Shown: piece after piece, positions 70-6,501 of the stretch
How positions within the stretch are numbered: position 1 is the first letter of the stretch
How the letters are laid out: each line of letters starts with the position of its first letter
Notes under the pieces: generated by a model
Databases searched by the model: none
Told to the model about the DNA's origin: nothing
The model's input: the letters and a program-made list of their open reading frames with translations, nothing else
Translations under genes and position numbers: made by a program
Origin: a bacterium
GTDB lineage: Bacteria > Desulfobacterota > DSWW01
Assembly: GCA_030609865.1 (NCBI GenBank)
Contig: JAUWSZ010000155.1
Span: 1 to 6,501 of the forward strand
Reading direction: 5' to 3'
Length of the DNA stretch: 6,501 nt

Positions 70-98
70 TTGACATCTGATGCGCCATGAACTATCAT
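70..98 (+). promoter_or_regulatory. Sigma70-type promoter of the vapBC operon
   Basis: TTGACA (70-75) is a perfect -35 box. After exactly 17 bases comes TATCAT (93-98), five of six to the -10 consensus. The expected start of transcription, about 7 bases past the -10, is near A105, three bases before the ATG at 108. The antitoxin mRNA would therefore be leaderless or nearly so, which agrees with the absence of a Shine-Dalgarno sequence there. A short dyad CATC-T-GATG (74-82) lies in the spacer and could be part of a ribbon-helix-helix operator, but it is too short to be sure. Confidence 0.6.
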
Positions 99-107
99 CA
101 TAACATC

Positions 108-371
108 ATGAGAACGACCGTGAATATCGACGACCCGATCCTCAAGGAGCTGAAGAAGCTCCAGACGGAAAAGGGGAAATCCCTGGGGCGGCTGATTTCA
201 GACTTGCTGGCACAGGCGCTTCATGTGCGCAAGGGAGCAGGCAAGAGGCCCAGGAACCGTCGCTGGATCTCCCGAGGAATGGGAGCGCGCATCGATCTGG
301 CCGACAAGGAGGCCCTCTACGCCGCGCTCGAGCAGAAAGCGCCGGTGGCTGAAGAAGAGGACGGTCCGTGA
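108..371 (+). CDS. vapB: VapB-type antitoxin, ribbon-helix-helix family
   Basis: This is an 87-residue antitoxin that would bind and neutralise the PIN toxin encoded directly downstream and repress its own operon. The N-terminus MRTTVNIDDPILKEL fits a ribbon-helix-helix fold: a short beta strand (residues 2-8), then two helices (about 10-22 and 26-39, the second LGRLISDLLAQALHV). A basic linker (about 41-57, KGAGKRPRNRR) follows, then a C-terminal helix with DLADKEALYAALE. That tail is typical of VapB partners of this PIN subfamily and would be the toxin-binding part. An in-frame ATG at 87 exists, but it lies inside the predicted promoter (before the -10), so 108 is preferred. Neither start has a visible Shine-Dalgarno. 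The stop codon overlaps the toxin start (GTGA, 368-371), which implies translational coupling. The family call rests on pattern recognition without a database search. Confidence 0.8.
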   Translation: MRTTVNIDDPILKELKKLQTEKGKSLGRLISDLLAQALHVRKGAGKRPRNRRWISRGMGARIDLADKEALYAALEQKAPVAEEEDGP

Positions 372-802
372 GTTTCGCGCTCGACGTGAACATCCTGCTG
401 TACGCCTCCGATTCCGACAGCCCCCACCACGAAAGGGCCGCCTCCTTCCTCGAGCAATGCATACAGCAGGAAGAGCTCTTCTGTCTCGGATGGCCGACGG
501 TGATGAGCTACCTGCGAATCGCCACGCATCCTTCTATTTTCGTGCGTCCCCTGACACCGGATGAGGCGATGACCAATGTCGAGACACTCCTGAATCTGCC
601 GCACATGCGTTTCCTGGCGGAAGAGGAGGGATTCTGGGAAGTCTATCGAAAGCTGACACGGGAAACGCCGACCCGGGGCAATCTCGTGCCCGATGCGCAT
701 CTCGCCGCAATCCTGCGTCAACACGGGGTGAAGCGGCTCTACACCCATGACCGGGACTTCCTTAAGTTCTCTTTCCTCGACGTCCGTGATCCTCTTGCGT
801 GA
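368..802 (+). CDS. vapC: VapC-type toxin, PIN-domain endoribonuclease
   Basis: This is a 144-residue single PIN domain starting at GTG and overlapping the antitoxin stop by 4 bases. VapC toxins are Mg2+-dependent RNases that cut tRNA or rRNA and stop translation until neutralised by VapB. Visible catalytic acids are D6 in LDVNILLYA, D109 in NLVPDAHLAA, and D128/D130 in THDRDF. The middle motif reads GWPTVMSYLRIATHPSIF (about 41-58) and has no Glu at the place where classical PIN domains carry their second acid. As I recall, the VapC branch with W-P...LRxATxPxxF and RGNLVxDAHLAA motifs normally looks like this, so I do not read it as inactivation. Length and motif order are complete. Nothing downstream belongs to the operon: 26 bases after the stop a new promoter begins. 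Confidence 0.88.
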   Translation: MSFALDVNILLYASDSDSPHHERAASFLEQCIQQEELFCLGWPTVMSYLRIATHPSIFVRPLTPDEAMTNVETLLNLPHMRFLAEEEGFWEVYRKLTRETPTRGNLVPDAHLAAILRQHGVKRLYTHDRDFLKFSFLDVRDPLA

Positions 803-872: not shown

Positions 873-888
873 ATACATGGGCGGCCGC

Positions 889-1332
889 ATGTCTGAAGAG
901 AAAAAAATACGGCAATTCAACGAGTTACTCGTTTCCATCTCGACCAACATGATGCTCCACGAGATGGACAACCTGAAGAAGAAGCTCCTCCTCCGGACCC
1001 TCTCGTTCCAGGAGATGCATACGATCGAGATCGTCGGAAACCTCGAGGGGGTGAACATGGGTAGGCTGGCCAGGGAGGCGAAGGTGACCCAGGGCACCAT
1101 GTCCGTGATGGTCAAGAAGCTCGTGAAAAAAGGGCTGGGGGAGAGGAACGGCAGCCCGGAAGACCTTCGGGTTGTCAATGTGCGGCTGACAGAGAAGGGC
1201 AGAGACGCCTATCAGCAGCACGGAGAGATGCACATGAAGGCGACCCGTGAGTGGCTCTCGCTCGTGAGCGAGGAAGAGCAGGAGATCATGCTGATGGTCC
1301 TGAAGAAAATCAATCGCTTTCTCACGGGCTGA
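889..1332 (+). CDS. MarR-family winged-helix transcriptional regulator
   Basis: This is a 147-residue regulator of the usual MarR length. MarR proteins act as dimers and typically release their operator when they bind a small aromatic or lipophilic ligand or are oxidised. After an N-terminal dimerisation helix (about 5-30), the winged helix covers about residues 38-105. The helix SFQEMHTIEIVGN is followed by NMGRLAREAKVTQGTMSVMVKKLVKKGL (recognition helix about 66-81) and the wing ERNGSPEDLRVVNVRLTEKG, with the D92-x-R94 pair typical of the family. C-terminal helices (about 106-145) complete the dimer interface. An in-frame ATG at 877 would add MGGR. Neither start has a good Shine-Dalgarno, and 889 is chosen because MSEEKK is a more natural N-terminus. 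It lies just upstream of, and on the same strand as, the oxidoreductase-hydrolase operon, and shares an operator word with it. It contains no cysteine, so oxidation sensing is unlikely. Confidence 0.88.
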   Translation: MSEEKKIRQFNELLVSISTNMMLHEMDNLKKKLLLRTLSFQEMHTIEIVGNLEGVNMGRLAREAKVTQGTMSVMVKKLVKKGLGERNGSPEDLRVVNVRLTEKGRDAYQQHGEMHMKATREWLSLVSEEEQEIMLMVLKKINRFLTG

Positions 1333-1441: not shown

Positions 1442-2809
1442 ATGGCAGATTTGAGTGTGGACTTTGCCGGGCTGCGGCTTAGGAACCCGTTGGTCGCGTC
1501 GGCCGGACCGGTAACCGCAAACGTGGAAATGGCCCGGAAATTGACGGACGCCGGCGTGGGCGCGATCGTCACGAAGACAGGCTTCACGAAGAGAGAATAC
1601 GAGAAATGGGTCGGCAGGAAGGGCATCTTTCCCTACAAGCCTGTTTACAAGTACCAGAGCCTGCACAAGGGGAGACTCTTGTCGCTCCCTACCCTGTCTG
1701 ACGTCCCGGTCTCGGAAATGGCGCGGAGGGTCGAACAGATGAAGGCCCTGGACGTCCCGATCGTGGGCAGCATCATGGGGCTTACTCCCCAGGGCTACCG
1801 GGAGAGCGCAAGGATCCTGGAGAGCGCCGGCGCGGATGCGCTCGAGCTGGACTTGTGCTGCCCGATCCCGGAGTTCACGTCCAAATACAAGTACGCGGGC
1901 CAGAGCATCAACTTCACCCCGAAGCTCTACGCAAAACTCGTGAAGTCCGTGAAGGAAGTGGTGTCCATCCCGGTGGGCGCCAAGTCAACGGTCTGCCTTT
2001 ATGTCTACCCCAAGCTGCTCGAGGGGTTGATCCGCACGAAGGTCGCGAACAGCCTTCCCGACTTCGTCACGCTCGTCGGTCAACTCGACGAGAACCCGGG
2101 CGTGAACCTGGAGACGCTCCAGCCGTTGATCCCGCACATCTCCACCTTCGGGTGGCAGGGAAGCCTGGCCAAGCTCACCTACTCGGCACTGGCCACCTTC
2201 AGCAGCGCCCTCGGCACGAGACATCCTGTTCTGTCCGCATCGGGTGGGATCAGGGACGTGGAGGGGGTGATCACCTCGATGGCCCTGGGCGCCACCACGG
2301 TCCAGTTCCAGACGGCGATCCTGGATAGAGGGGTCAAGGTTCTTACGAAGATCCGGAAGGACCTCGAGGACTATCTCGTGGAGCACAACATTGCAGCCCT
2401 CGAGCAGATCATCGGCCGAGCGAGCCAAAGCTACATTCCCTCCATCCTGCTTGGGTCCTTCATGCTGGAGCGGGACAGTCTCTACGGGAGGCTGTTCGCC
2501 GAGGTGGACCCGGATCTCTGCAACGGGTGCGGGCTCTGCGCAGAGGTCTGCACCGAGCACGCGGTCGAGATGAGAGAGAACCAGGCCTTCATCCGGACGA
2601 AGGCCTGCAGGGCCTGCAACCTCTGCGTGCTCAAGTGCCCCCAGGGCGCCATCCATCTGGAGAACTACGAACAACTGGAGGCGCTGATCGAGAAGTACAA
2701 GCAGGCAGAGGCGGGCAGGTCGTTCCGGGCCTTCATGGGCAAGGAGAGGATCGGCCTGGCGGACAAGCTCGCCATGCCCGCCAAGCTCCGGAGCTGGGGC
2801 CTGGGCTGA
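1442..2809 (+). CDS. PreA/DHOD-like FMN oxidoreductase with 2x[4Fe-4S] ferredoxin domain
   Basis: This 455-residue cytoplasmic flavoprotein has the layout of bacterial PreA (dihydropyrimidine dehydrogenase subunit). A dihydroorotate-dehydrogenase-type TIM barrel (about 1-340) is followed by a two-cluster ferredoxin domain (about 352-405) and a short helical tail. Barrel marks are the start DFAGLRLRNPLVASAGP, K45 in VTKTGF, the FMN-phosphate loop SASGGI (265-270) and GATTVQFQTAIL (283-294). The active-site loop reads LDLCCPIP: C140 matches the catalytic Cys of class-1 DHOD/DPD (usual NLSCPxx), but the ligand-binding Asn is D137 and the Ser is C139. The later Asn-Thr pair is also not evident (FVTLVGQ, 208-214). 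Cluster ligands are C360, C363, C366, C370 and C389, C392, C395, C399. Family members reduce or oxidise cyclic C=C bonds. PreA needs a flavin/NAD(P)H partner (PreT), and none is encoded here. With the altered substrate residues, pyrimidine is doubtful as substrate. It is first in an operon, 20 bases before the hydrolase. Confidence 0.85.
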   Translation: MADLSVDFAGLRLRNPLVASAGPVTANVEMARKLTDAGVGAIVTKTGFTKREYEKWVGRKGIFPYKPVYKYQSLHKGRLLSLPTLSDVPVSEMARRVEQMKALDVPIVGSIMGLTPQGYRESARILESAGADALELDLCCPIPEFTSKYKYAGQSINFTPKLYAKLVKSVKEVVSIPVGAKSTVCLYVYPKLLEGLIRTKVANSLPDFVTLVGQLDENPGVNLETLQPLIPHISTFGWQGSLAKLTYSALATFSSALGTRHPVLSASGGIRDVEGVITSMALGATTVQFQTAILDRGVKVLTKIRKDLEDYLVEHNIAALEQIIGRASQSYIPSILLGSFMLERDSLYGRLFAEVDPDLCNGCGLCAEVCTEHAVEMRENQAFIRTKACRACNLCVLKCPQGAIHLENYEQLEALIEKYKQAEAGRSFRAFMGKERIGLADKLAMPAKLRSWGLG

Positions 2810-2829: not shown

Positions 2830-4026
2830 ATGAAATCGCAATTCAATATCGGCACACACCATTTTCATGAAGAACCCAATATGAACTACCAGTTCAATCG
2901 CGTCTATTCCGTGTTCGGCGGTGATTTGAACGAAATCCGGGATGCGTCAAGAAGAACAGAAACGCTCGATGACTGGAAGAGGGTGTTCCTGAGGCTGGCG
3001 GAAACCGCAAAGGCTGAAAAGAGGTTCACGCATGCTGCGGCTTATTACCGGGGCGCAAATTTCTATATTTCGCCGGACGATCCGGACAAAGAGAGCAGTT
3101 ATGATGAATATGTCGCCCTGATTCGTCAAATATATCAGACTGAATTCGAAACCGGCATGATCAAAGAACATAGAGTCCCTTACGAAAACGCCTATCTTCC
3201 GGTATGGCAGGTCAATCCCGCAAATAAGGATGTCAGAAGAAACGTGGTGGTGATGCATCTGGGATTTGATGCGGTGAAGGAGGAATTGATCCCGATCATT
3301 CACTTCTTCCGCGATGCCGATCTGGAATTGTATCTTTTTGAAGGCCCCGGACAGGGGGAGACCTTGAACAAGAACAATATCCATATGACCCATGAACATG
3401 AAAAACCTGTCAAAGCGATTCTGGATTTTTTCAATCTGGAGGATGTCACTTTGATCGGTTTGTCGCTCGGCGGCTATCTCGCGCCCAGGGCCGGCATATA
3501 CGAGCAAAGAGTAAAGCGCGTCGTCGCGTGGGGGGTGATGTATGATTTTCTGGATACGGTGCTCTCACGCCGCGGAAAGCTATTGGAAATCCTCTTGAGA
3601 GCGCTACTAGGGGTGAAAGCGTCTGCAGCGATAAATGCGATTGCAAGAGCAAGAATGAAAAAGGACACCTATGCAAAATGGGGTATTGAGCACGGCATGT
3701 ATGTTCTGGGAGCAAAATCGCCGTATGAATATTTTCAGAAACTGAAATTGTATTCGATGAAGTCTATTTCGCATCTGGTCAAACAGGATTTCTTGTTGAT
3801 ATCAGGGACGGACGACCATTTTGTGCCCCTGTCCCATTTTCACAAGCAATCCGAAAAACTGGTAAACGTCAGATCATTTACCGGAAGAATATTCACAAAA
3901 TACGAACATGCGGAAAACCACGTACAATTCGGAAATATCCCTCTGGTTGTCCAATTCATAATCAACTGGAGAACAAACACAGACATCCGGCCTTCGCCGA
4001 CATTGAATACGTCACCACGTTTATGA
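2830..4026 (+). CDS. Alpha/beta hydrolase, FrsA/Ayg1/pseudooxynicotine-hydrolase type
   Basis: This is a 398-residue cytoplasmic alpha/beta hydrolase. A helical N-terminal part (about 28-115, including DDWKRVFLRLAETA and FTHAAAYYRGANFY) precedes the core, as in 2,6-dihydropseudooxynicotine hydrolase, Ayg1 and FrsA relatives. Core marks are the FEGPGQGET loop (170-178), nucleophile S212 in the elbow GLSLGG (210-215), the acid D328 or D329 in GTDDHFVP, and a histidine in YEHAENHVQFGN, probably H364. Helices at about 236-310 form the lid. Relatives cut C-C bonds of beta-dicarbonyl-like compounds or esters; the substrate here is unknown. It follows the oxidoreductase by 20 bases with its own Shine-Dalgarno, so it is co-transcribed and may act on that enzyme's product. 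Sample lines are far more AT-rich (3061-3120 about 47% GC, 3841-3900 about 37%) than the oxidoreductase (2281-2340 about 67%), which suggests foreign origin. The stop overlaps the stop of the minus-strand transporter. Confidence 0.82.
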   Translation: MKSQFNIGTHHFHEEPNMNYQFNRVYSVFGGDLNEIRDASRRTETLDDWKRVFLRLAETAKAEKRFTHAAAYYRGANFYISPDDPDKESSYDEYVALIRQIYQTEFETGMIKEHRVPYENAYLPVWQVNPANKDVRRNVVVMHLGFDAVKEELIPIIHFFRDADLELYLFEGPGQGETLNKNNIHMTHEHEKPVKAILDFFNLEDVTLIGLSLGGYLAPRAGIYEQRVKRVVAWGVMYDFLDTVLSRRGKLLEILLRALLGVKASAAINAIARARMKKDTYAKWGIEHGMYVLGAKSPYEYFQKLKLYSMKSISHLVKQDFLLISGTDDHFVPLSHFHKQSEKLVNVRSFTGRIFTKYEHAENHVQFGNIPLVVQFIINWRTNTDIRPSPTLNTSPRL

Positions 4027-5706
4027 GCCAGGGCTCGTCGCCTCACCTTTCGCGGAAGACGCCTTCTCTTCCCTCTCCCTCCCAAAGGGCTTCAGGAAGA
4101 CGAACAGGGCCGGCGTAATCAGCAGGTCCGCCGCCAGGGCGGCAACGATCCCCGCGCCGGCAAGTATCCCCATGGAGACCAAGCTGCGCATGTCGGAGAA
4201 CCCGAAGATGGAGAACCCAAGGGCCAGGATGACGGTCGTAAACAGGATCGCGGGCCCCACCCTGCCGAAGGTTCTCCGGTTCGCTTCCCGGTACCGGCCG
4301 CAAGCCCGGAACTCCTGCTTGAAATGGAGGATGTAGTGTACCGTGTCATCCACCGCAATGCCGATGATCATCGGCATGACCATGACGGTCACCATGTCCA
4401 GTGGGATCTCCGCCATCCCCATGATGCCTCCGATCACGAGCACCGGGAACGCATTCGGGATCATGGACAGAAGCCCGACCGGTATCGACCTCAGGATGAG
4501 AATCATCAGAAGGGTGATAACGCCGAAGGCAGCTGTCACGGAGGCTACCTGTCCGCGGCTGAGCATGTTCACCATCTTCATCATCAGTGGAATCTCGCCC
4601 ACGATCTCGATGCGGGTGCCCTCGGGGAACAGCTCCCCTCCGAGTCGTTCGATCTCCTGGAACAGGTCGGTCATGGTCGTTGAAGAGGCCTTCACCTGGA
4701 CCGAAATCCGGAGGTTCCGGTAGTCGTAATCGATCCATTCCTGCAGTTCTTCTCCGCCCGACATCTCGTAGAGCAGCAGATACTGGGCCACGAGTTCGCG
4801 TGTCGGGGGCAGGCGGTAGTGTTCGATGCGCTTGCCGTTCATCGTCATGTTGATGTCCTGCAGGATCTCGACGACCGAGGTCGTAACGGCCGTCGACTCC
4901 CACCCGTTGATCACGTCGGAGATGGACCGGACCGCCTTCAGGACTTCCGGGTCCTTGGCCATGCCGTCCGCCGGGGTGACGATCAGCACTTCGTACGAGT
5001 AAAGCCCTCCGAGGCTCTCGATGATATGCTTCGCGTCCCGCACGAACCCGACCTTCTCCCCCATGATCTCCAGGAAATCCGTATCCACCTCGACCCTGAA
5101 CGCATACGCCACGAGGACCGCCGCCACACCGAGAGAGGCCAGGCCCACAGCAAGCGGCCTCTTCGTCACCAGATCGGCCCAGCTCTCCATGGCTCTGGAT
5201 CTTTTCTTCACCATGGCGGCGCCCCGCTGCACTTCACGGTCGCGACCGAAGGAAAAGGCGACGGGAACGAGAATCATGACGAGCAGGTAGGTCACGAGGA
5301 CCCCGAGGGTACAAAGAGCACCCGTTTCTCTTATGGGTCGTATGGGGACGAGCAGGAAGGAGGCAAAGCCCAGGGAGGTCGTCAGGGCCGTGACGAAACA
5401 CGGCCAGCCGGAGTGAAAATACGCGTATTCGATCGCTTCCGAGCGAGAGCCGAACCGAAGGAGGCCGGTCTGGAGGTGGTTGATCACGTGGATGGAATAA
5501 CTGATCGAGATGACCAGAATCAGGGTGGAGACCACCGTGCTCACGAGGGTCATGGGCAGGCCGAGCCAGCCCATGATTCCGTAAAGAATCACGAGGGTGG
5601 AGGCGACCACCAGAAAGGGCGCCACGACCCCGGCGGGGCTGCGAAACAGAACGACCATCAACACGACGGAAACCAGGAGCGCGATCAGGCCGAATCTCTT
5701 GGCTTC
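4021..5706 (-). pseudogene. RND-superfamily transporter, N-terminus missing
   Basis: This is the C-terminal two thirds of an RND/MMPL-type exporter (COG1033-like), an inner-membrane proton-driven pump for lipophilic substrates. Counting residues from a GTG at 5664, membrane segments fall at about -10 to 7, 11-32, 38-58, 88-106, 114-137 and 169-188; a soluble periplasmic domain at 190-370; then 373-391, 393-417, 421-446, 470-489 and 494-524. These fit TM2-TM12 of the 12-segment fold. TM1 and the first periplasmic domain, roughly 230-270 residues, are absent. TM10 carries the proton-relay pair D439-D440 (GIAVDDTVHY), while TM4 has SISYSIHV without Asp. Reading back from 5664 the frame stays RND-like (AKRFGLIALLVSVV) to about 5703-5706, loses resemblance, and meets a TGA at 5745-5743. 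No Shine-Dalgarno precedes any early start codon. Its stop overlaps the hydrolase stop by 6 bases, tail to tail. If the left part is still translated, the pump is probably non-functional. Confidence 0.8.
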
Positions 5707-5712
5707 TCGCGG
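5700..5712. other. Head-to-head junction of two truncated genes
   Basis: The minus-strand RND similarity and the plus-strand TetR similarity both stop within about a dozen bases here, with no room for promoters, start codons, the TetR DNA-binding domain or RND TM1. A deletion between divergent genes explains both losses in one event. The exact breakpoint cannot be placed by eye, and an assembly misjoin is an alternative. Confidence 0.6.
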
Positions 5713-6095
5713 AGCAGCTGAGCAAGCTCTCCGGAAGGGCCGTCAAGCCCCGCAAACTGCTGCACGGACTCATCGGCACAATGGTCTCGGAACAGATGAT
5801 CGATCCAGAGCTTCACAGGGTGCTCATTGAGGCCGTTCTGGGGTCTCCGGCGGTGATGCAGAGGGGGAGGAAGATCCTCGATGGCGTCGTCGAGGAACTG
5901 GCGGGCCTGATCGAAGAGCAGATGGTCGGTGTGTCCGCGATCAGGGTCAAGGACACAGGGCTGGCCGCCCGGATGGCAACCATCACGGGTTTCCTGCTCA
6001 CCCACTGGTTCGTCCTCGCCGGTACCGAAGAGATCAACACCGACAGGTATGTGGACGAAGTGACCGATCTGCTGGCAAGGTATCTCTTCGAGTGA
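5703..6095 (+). pseudogene. TetR-family regulator, DNA-binding domain missing
   Basis: About 130 codons are open from LLAEQLSKLSGRAVKPRKL at 5703 to the TGA at 6093-6095. The sequence matches the ligand-binding half of TetR regulators: DPELHRVLIEAVLGSP, a long helical stretch to LIEEQ, then AARMATITGFLLTHWFVLAG and the terminal YVDEVTDLLARYLFE. TetR proteins are usually about 190-210 residues with a helix-turn-helix in the first 50-60; that part is absent here. Reading further left in frame gives sequence antisense to the RND gene with no helix-turn-helix. The first ATG (5781) would give a 104-residue remnant with no Shine-Dalgarno before it, so it cannot bind DNA as a TetR repressor. Its divergent orientation relative to the RND gene is the standard layout for a TetR repressor and the exporter it controls, so the two were probably partners. 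Confidence 0.75.
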
Positions 6096-6242: not shown

Positions 6243-6501
6243 TCAGAGCATCAACCGGGCAAGGGCATCGCCCTTTTCAAAGCTCGGTCCGATGAGCTTC
6301 TCCACGGATTCTATCGGGATACCCCACCGAGAATGGGCGTCCCGGATCAGGCCGTCGAGTCCCAGGTCTTGCTCGTCTTCCCGAAGCCAGGCCACCAGGC
6401 TCACCGGGGCCAGGTGCTCGTAGCCTTCATAGCTGGCCCCGTGATGGCCTCCGATGGCCGCGGTGATGCTCCCGGGAAAATCCCACTCATCGCACATCCA
6501 G
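6243..6501 (-). CDS. HDOD-domain protein, C-terminal part
   Basis: The gene enters from the right edge and ends at the TGA 6245-6243, so only the last 85 codons or so are visible. The segment WDFPGSITAAIGGHHG followed by HLAPVSLVAWLRE matches the end of HDOD domains (W-x-x-P, then x-x-A-I-x-x-HH, then an A-rich helix). These are HD-GYP-related domains found in bacterial signalling proteins, often with lost phosphodiesterase activity. After the domain come about 45 residues (LGLDGLIRDAHSRWGIPIESVEKLI and on) with no motif I recognise. An ATG at 6497-6495 lies inside the domain and is not the true start, since the HDOD region needs about 130 more residues upstream. Any sensor or receiver domain, the promoter and operon partners lie outside the window. 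Confidence 0.7.
   Translation of the reverse strand, partial: WMCDEWDFPGSITAAIGGHHGASYEGYEHLAPVSLVAWLREDEQDLGLDGLIRDAHSRWGIPIESVEKLIGPSFEKGDALARLML

Follow-up and report, generated by a model that had tools for sequence, protein, structure and literature searches.

What event could leave two divergent genes, one for an RND/MMPL-type exporter on the minus strand and one for a TetR-family regulator on the plus strand, both without their front ends at a single point? An earlier note on this DNA had read the arrangement as one deletion of the shared promoter region and both 5′ ends, removing an efflux pump and its repressor at once. The window, i.e., the whole stretch of DNA analyzed here, is apparently a complete metagenome contig of 6501 bp, this being the longest contig recorded for its own RND protein, and carries the features collected in Table 1. 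Overall, we consider one recent deletion in a divergent TetR/exporter locus to be the simplest reading, with a probability of roughly 55%.

Table 1 Features of the 6501-bp window, with positions counted from its first base
Feature	Position	Strand	Remarks
Small ORF before the VapC-type toxin	87-371		Ribbon-helix-helix and VapB matches, all sub-threshold
VapC-type toxin	368-802		139.4 bits against TIGR00028 cut-off of 73.6
MarR regulator	877-1332		Resembles FabT, but its 92.7 bits fall short of the FabT cut-off of 200
PreA-like dihydroorotate dehydrogenase/ferredoxin protein	1442-2809		Preceded by the MarR regulator
Alpha/beta hydrolase-fold gene	2830..4026	+	Convergent with the RND remnant
3′ remnant of RND/MMPL exporter gene	4021..5709	-	Residue ~269 through the C-terminus (full length ~820 aa)
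Junction where RND similarity (minus) meets TetR similarity (plus)	5706..5709		tblastn, sequence
3′ remnant of TetR-family regulator gene	5706..6095	+	Residues 83-211; TetR_C_15 kept, helix-turn-helix lost
Gene truncated by the contig end, C-terminal part	6243..6500	-	Convergent with TetR

The junction was mapped by tblastn of 13 RND and 7 TetR relatives against the window, P0003 and P0010 among the RND relatives being themselves partial and the other 11 of 13 full-length. The best RND match started at base 5709 for seven of the 13, at 5706 for five, and at 5715 for one, and similarity began at residues 267–277 of the 11 full-length relatives. TetR similarity began at 5706 with all seven relatives (residue 83, or 84 in P0127). 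The overlap between the two similarities was 1–10 bp: 1 or 4 bp with 12 of the 13 RND relatives, and 10 bp with P0008 alone. With profile HMMs of the same relatives, RND similarity ran to 5712 (model position 268, with a mismatch at the outermost residue) and TetR similarity began at 5706 (model position 83). That the two genes lose their front ends at a single junction, with similarities ending within about a dozen bases of each other, is therefore borne out.

The exporter has lost ~268 of its ~820 residues, namely TM1 and the first periplasmic domain, and keeps TM2–TM12 along with the second periplasmic domain. By hydropathy, P0002 has 12 membrane segments and the remnant 11, the missing one being the first, with a loop of ~235 residues behind it. 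The TetR gene lacks the first 82 of 211 residues and with them the TetR_N (PF00440) helix-turn-helix, which occupies residues 25–68 of P0122, i.e., in the part lost here, and has no match in the remnant. Both losses had been described correctly, as had the two long open frames (estimated at about 560 and 130 codons, and counted here as 562 for RND and 129 for TetR); followed upstream from 5709, the RND frame runs for 11 codons before a stop. A search of the window with the lost front ends (RND residues 1–268 of P0002 and P0004, TetR residues 1–82 of P0122 and P0124) returned a single 29-residue match (E 0.67). A laxer search also gave weak front-part matches, the best of them for P0002 177–241 at 2946–2734 (E 0.007) and for P0123 25–128 at 1873–1571 (E 0.012); these two run antisense to other genes, that of P0002 was absent in a second search, and both look like chance.

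We next evaluated decay as the deviation at columns invariant among other relatives (mean over leave-one-out sets). The RND remnant deviated at 4.5% of these columns, compared to 3.0–8.8% for six full-length relatives (1.8% and 0–6.0%, respectively, with twelve relatives), and the TetR remnant at 1.7%, compared to 1.8–12.9% for its seven relatives. Neither remnant shows relaxed constraint, which agrees with the earlier argument against long decay. Since intact relatives are no better conserved than the remnants, the event is either recent or an artefact, and the lack of decay fits both equally. GC content at third codon positions is also alike on the two sides of the junction (0.82 and 0.81), as expected for a single genome, which favors a deletion.

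The RND remnant exceeds the Pfam MMPL cut-off (PF03176; 91.6 against 20.5 bits), although with 11 segments and no first periplasmic domain it falls short of the 12 segments and two periplasmic domains of MMPL exporters. Its HAE3 score (TIGR00921) of 187.4 is below the curated NCBIfam cut-off of 351.9, as are those of full-length P0002 (206.9) and P0004 (204.8). It most resembles MMPL/HAE3-like exporters that neighbor LolA_like (PF17131) genes, with 73–76% identity over P0002 residues 269–814; unlike these, it lacks the front third, and no LolA_like gene was detected in the window. The TetR remnant passes the TetR_C_15 cut-off (31.7 against 26.8 bits) and shares ~80% identity with P0122 over residues 83–211, differing from TetR regulators with this domain in having no TetR_N helix-turn-helix. 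Compared by sequence with solved structures, full-length P0002 and P0122 both found remote relatives only (best E 1.8e-07, HpnN, and 5.9e-20, respectively). In the plasmid collection, P0122 matched 470 records, 3 of them at 60–80% identity, with the 10 matches listed at 35–41%.

The closest exporter relatives (61–76% identity) are known as proteins only, and gene order was read from eight loci in six genomes (L017–L024) with 33–50% identity to P0002, the most similar exporter being that of Halonatronum (G001, L017; 50%). In all eight loci, the exporter has a LolA_like gene next to it or close by on its own strand, after it in six and before it in two, and a barrel-like gene accompanies the exporter in seven. 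Both calls rest on similarity to the Halonatronum genes, of which the LolA_like one is a strong match (203.8 bits against a cut-off of 30) and the barrel one scores 19.3 bits against DUF1302, below the cut-off of 23.2. The exporter comes last in G001 (LolA–barrel–RND) and in L024. Because these relatives adjoin LolA_like genes, the group is more likely to export lipids or hydrophobes than drugs, as far as such neighborhoods can suggest; the gene had previously been called an efflux pump, a term that is loose here.

Judged by TetR_N positions, none of these eight loci has a directly adjacent divergent TetR. Instead, three loci (L018, L019, and L020) have a same-strand TetR immediately upstream of the exporter. 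In L023 it lies on the same strand downstream of LolA_like, in L022 it is divergent with one 925-aa ORF in between, and in L024 it is on the same strand four ORFs upstream, whereas the contigs of L017 and L021, the latter only 8.4 kb long, have none. The three adjacent TetRs are remote from the window's TetR (30.6–40.1 bits) and are thus weak guides either way; unlike it, they have no TetR_C_15 match. Same-strand TetR–exporter gaps measured 83, 121, and 200 bp in three loci (L006–L008). Four loci were found on genome contigs, L001 at 49% and L002–L004 at 26–32%; in the latter three, a narrow HMM found no TetR, and a similarity search found LolA_like in one.

Across whole genomes, P0002 matched 6 of 151 relatives of G001 at E ≤ 1e-100 and 1 of 398 genomes in G001's phylum at 1e-100, namely G001; there were no matches among 299 genomes of G002's phylum at 1e-180 or 395 of G003's phylum at 1e-150, empty results that alone show nothing. 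In the plasmid collection, P0002 matched 42 records, the best-ranked of the 20 listed at 31.7% identity. Four of these 20 loci were read from PLSDB gene tables, which are incomplete: one has a same-strand TetR, edge-cut and with two ABC genes in between, the other three list none, an adjacent divergent TetR appears in none of the four, and an outer membrane lipoprotein-sorting (LolA-type) gene adjoins the exporter in three. Within the window, LolA_like and barrel queries (four each) gave nothing beyond two weak matches for barrel genes (E 0.05 and 0.80), and no partner gene lies behind the exporter remnant on its strand.

In a single-deletion scenario, a non-homologous (or short-microhomology) deletion would have joined the interior of the exporter gene to that of a divergent TetR gene, taking out ~268 codons from the start of the exporter, 82 from the start of TetR, and all intervening DNA with the two promoters. 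If the join is genuine, both genes would thereby be dead. Such a deletion would measure at least ~1.05 kb, plus the intergenic stretch, without partner genes, or ~3 kb if the exporter was preceded by LolA_like and barrel-like genes, the arrangement of G001; with that order and a divergent TetR in front, a ~3-kb deletion could explain the partner loss, both truncations, and the join. In favor of a deletion, the similarity ends coincide, the remnants keep their invariant residues, the 406 bp after the TetR stop hold no exporter front end, where a same-strand ancestor with a short gap would leave one, and no partner gene follows the exporter remnant, matching an order in which the exporter is last. 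Pseudogenes produced by one deletion across a divergent promoter are of a known kind, and this headless gene pair is ordinary in kind: as in those cases, two genes are headless at one join and otherwise undamaged, with the difference that here we infer the native, divergent order, the presence of the join in a living genome, and the size of the deletion. If real, this would be a neat case of an exporter and a regulator lost in one step, recently enough for no decay to have set in.

The weak point of a deletion is the ancestral order. TetR/RND pairs had been said to be commonly divergent, and TetRs in general are indeed often divergent from a neighbor and mostly within 200 bp of it, as are 198 of the 250 divergent ones in three Streptomyces (PMC3511530). 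In the same study, however, most divergent neighbors are not exporters, and among the readable relatives a same-strand TetR immediately precedes the exporter in 3 of 8 loci, with an adjacent divergent one in none. Hence, of the proposed single deletion, the two truncations and their shared junction stand, whereas the divergent pair it presupposes was not seen in these loci.

The join may alternatively be an artefact, i.e., a chimeric molecule or read (from ligation, PCR, or whole-genome amplification) or a misjoin linking two places of one genome, with both genes intact in the organism, which we regard as possible though somewhat doubtful. Undecayed remnants are exactly what an artefact predicts, and the join sits on a short metagenome contig, where such joins need read support. 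An assembly misjoin fits less well: the shared words that assemblers require for a join are far longer than this overlap, and the window contains no direct repeat families ≥14 nt and six short or imperfect inverted pairs, none with an arm at the junction, which together make a repeat-driven misjoin unlikely. Amplification chimeras are a closer match, as 406 of 475 junctions were inverted, 337 of these within 10 kb (PMC1855051), and inverted joins with an intervening deletion are typical of them, which would fit a same-strand ancestor. However, an inverted chimera of adjacent same-strand TetR and RND genes, with gaps such as those of L006–L008, should leave the exporter front end soon after TetR, and the 406 bp readable there do not contain it. 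A same-strand TetR–exporter ancestor turned by an inverted join was thus rejected in its simplest form.

Rather unlikely, in our view, is a genuine rearrangement more complex than a simple deletion, such as an inversion or relocation that brought the exporter and a distant TetR together and cut both. The TetRs of the readable relatives, being same-strand, distant, or absent from the contig, agree with it, as does TetR_C_15, present in the window's TetR and missing from the three adjacent relative TetRs. Against it, the junction has no repeat ≥14 nt, no transposase or recombinase was found among the eight window proteins scanned, and more events are required than for a deletion. An invertible switch was likewise unsupported, given the absence of a ≥14-nt repeat arm at the junction and of a recombinase in these eight proteins.

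It is very improbable that the two proteins naturally start here as short functional variants. Of 2245 RND relatives found, 119 were listed, 104 of them ≥750 aa; those shorter than 760 aa, 16 in all, were positioned by alignment, and the rest are near full length. None of the 119 starts near residue 268, and several of the shorter ones come from short contigs whose ends may have truncated them. Similarly, none of the seven TetR relatives, all 211–212 aa, starts at the junction point, and natural alternative starts were rejected on these grounds. The long open frames speak for short variants, but the first usable starts are GTG 5664, inside TM2, and ATG 5781, and no sigma-70-like promoter was matched between them in a scan of low power (1 in 2.6 kb, 0.8 expected). 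Least probable of all is a new dominant-negative regulator, in which a truncated TetR made from ATG 5781 would titrate a paralogous repressor.

For the window, Rfam gave zero matches, as did PADLOC for four window proteins; the window DNA had no match in the plasmid collection, and no relatives were found among viral contigs. A Pfam scan assigned no family to the gene cut by the contig end, the product of which contains a GGHHG stretch that presumably recalls HD/HDOD proteins. The alpha/beta hydrolase gene, the stop of which overlaps that of the RND remnant by 6 bp, has a third-position GC of 0.54, compared to 0.81–0.82 in the RND and TetR remnants and 0.72–0.86 across the window's other genes, and may be a recent arrival. 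For the PreA-like protein, the seven nearest relatives were found at 96–86% identity.
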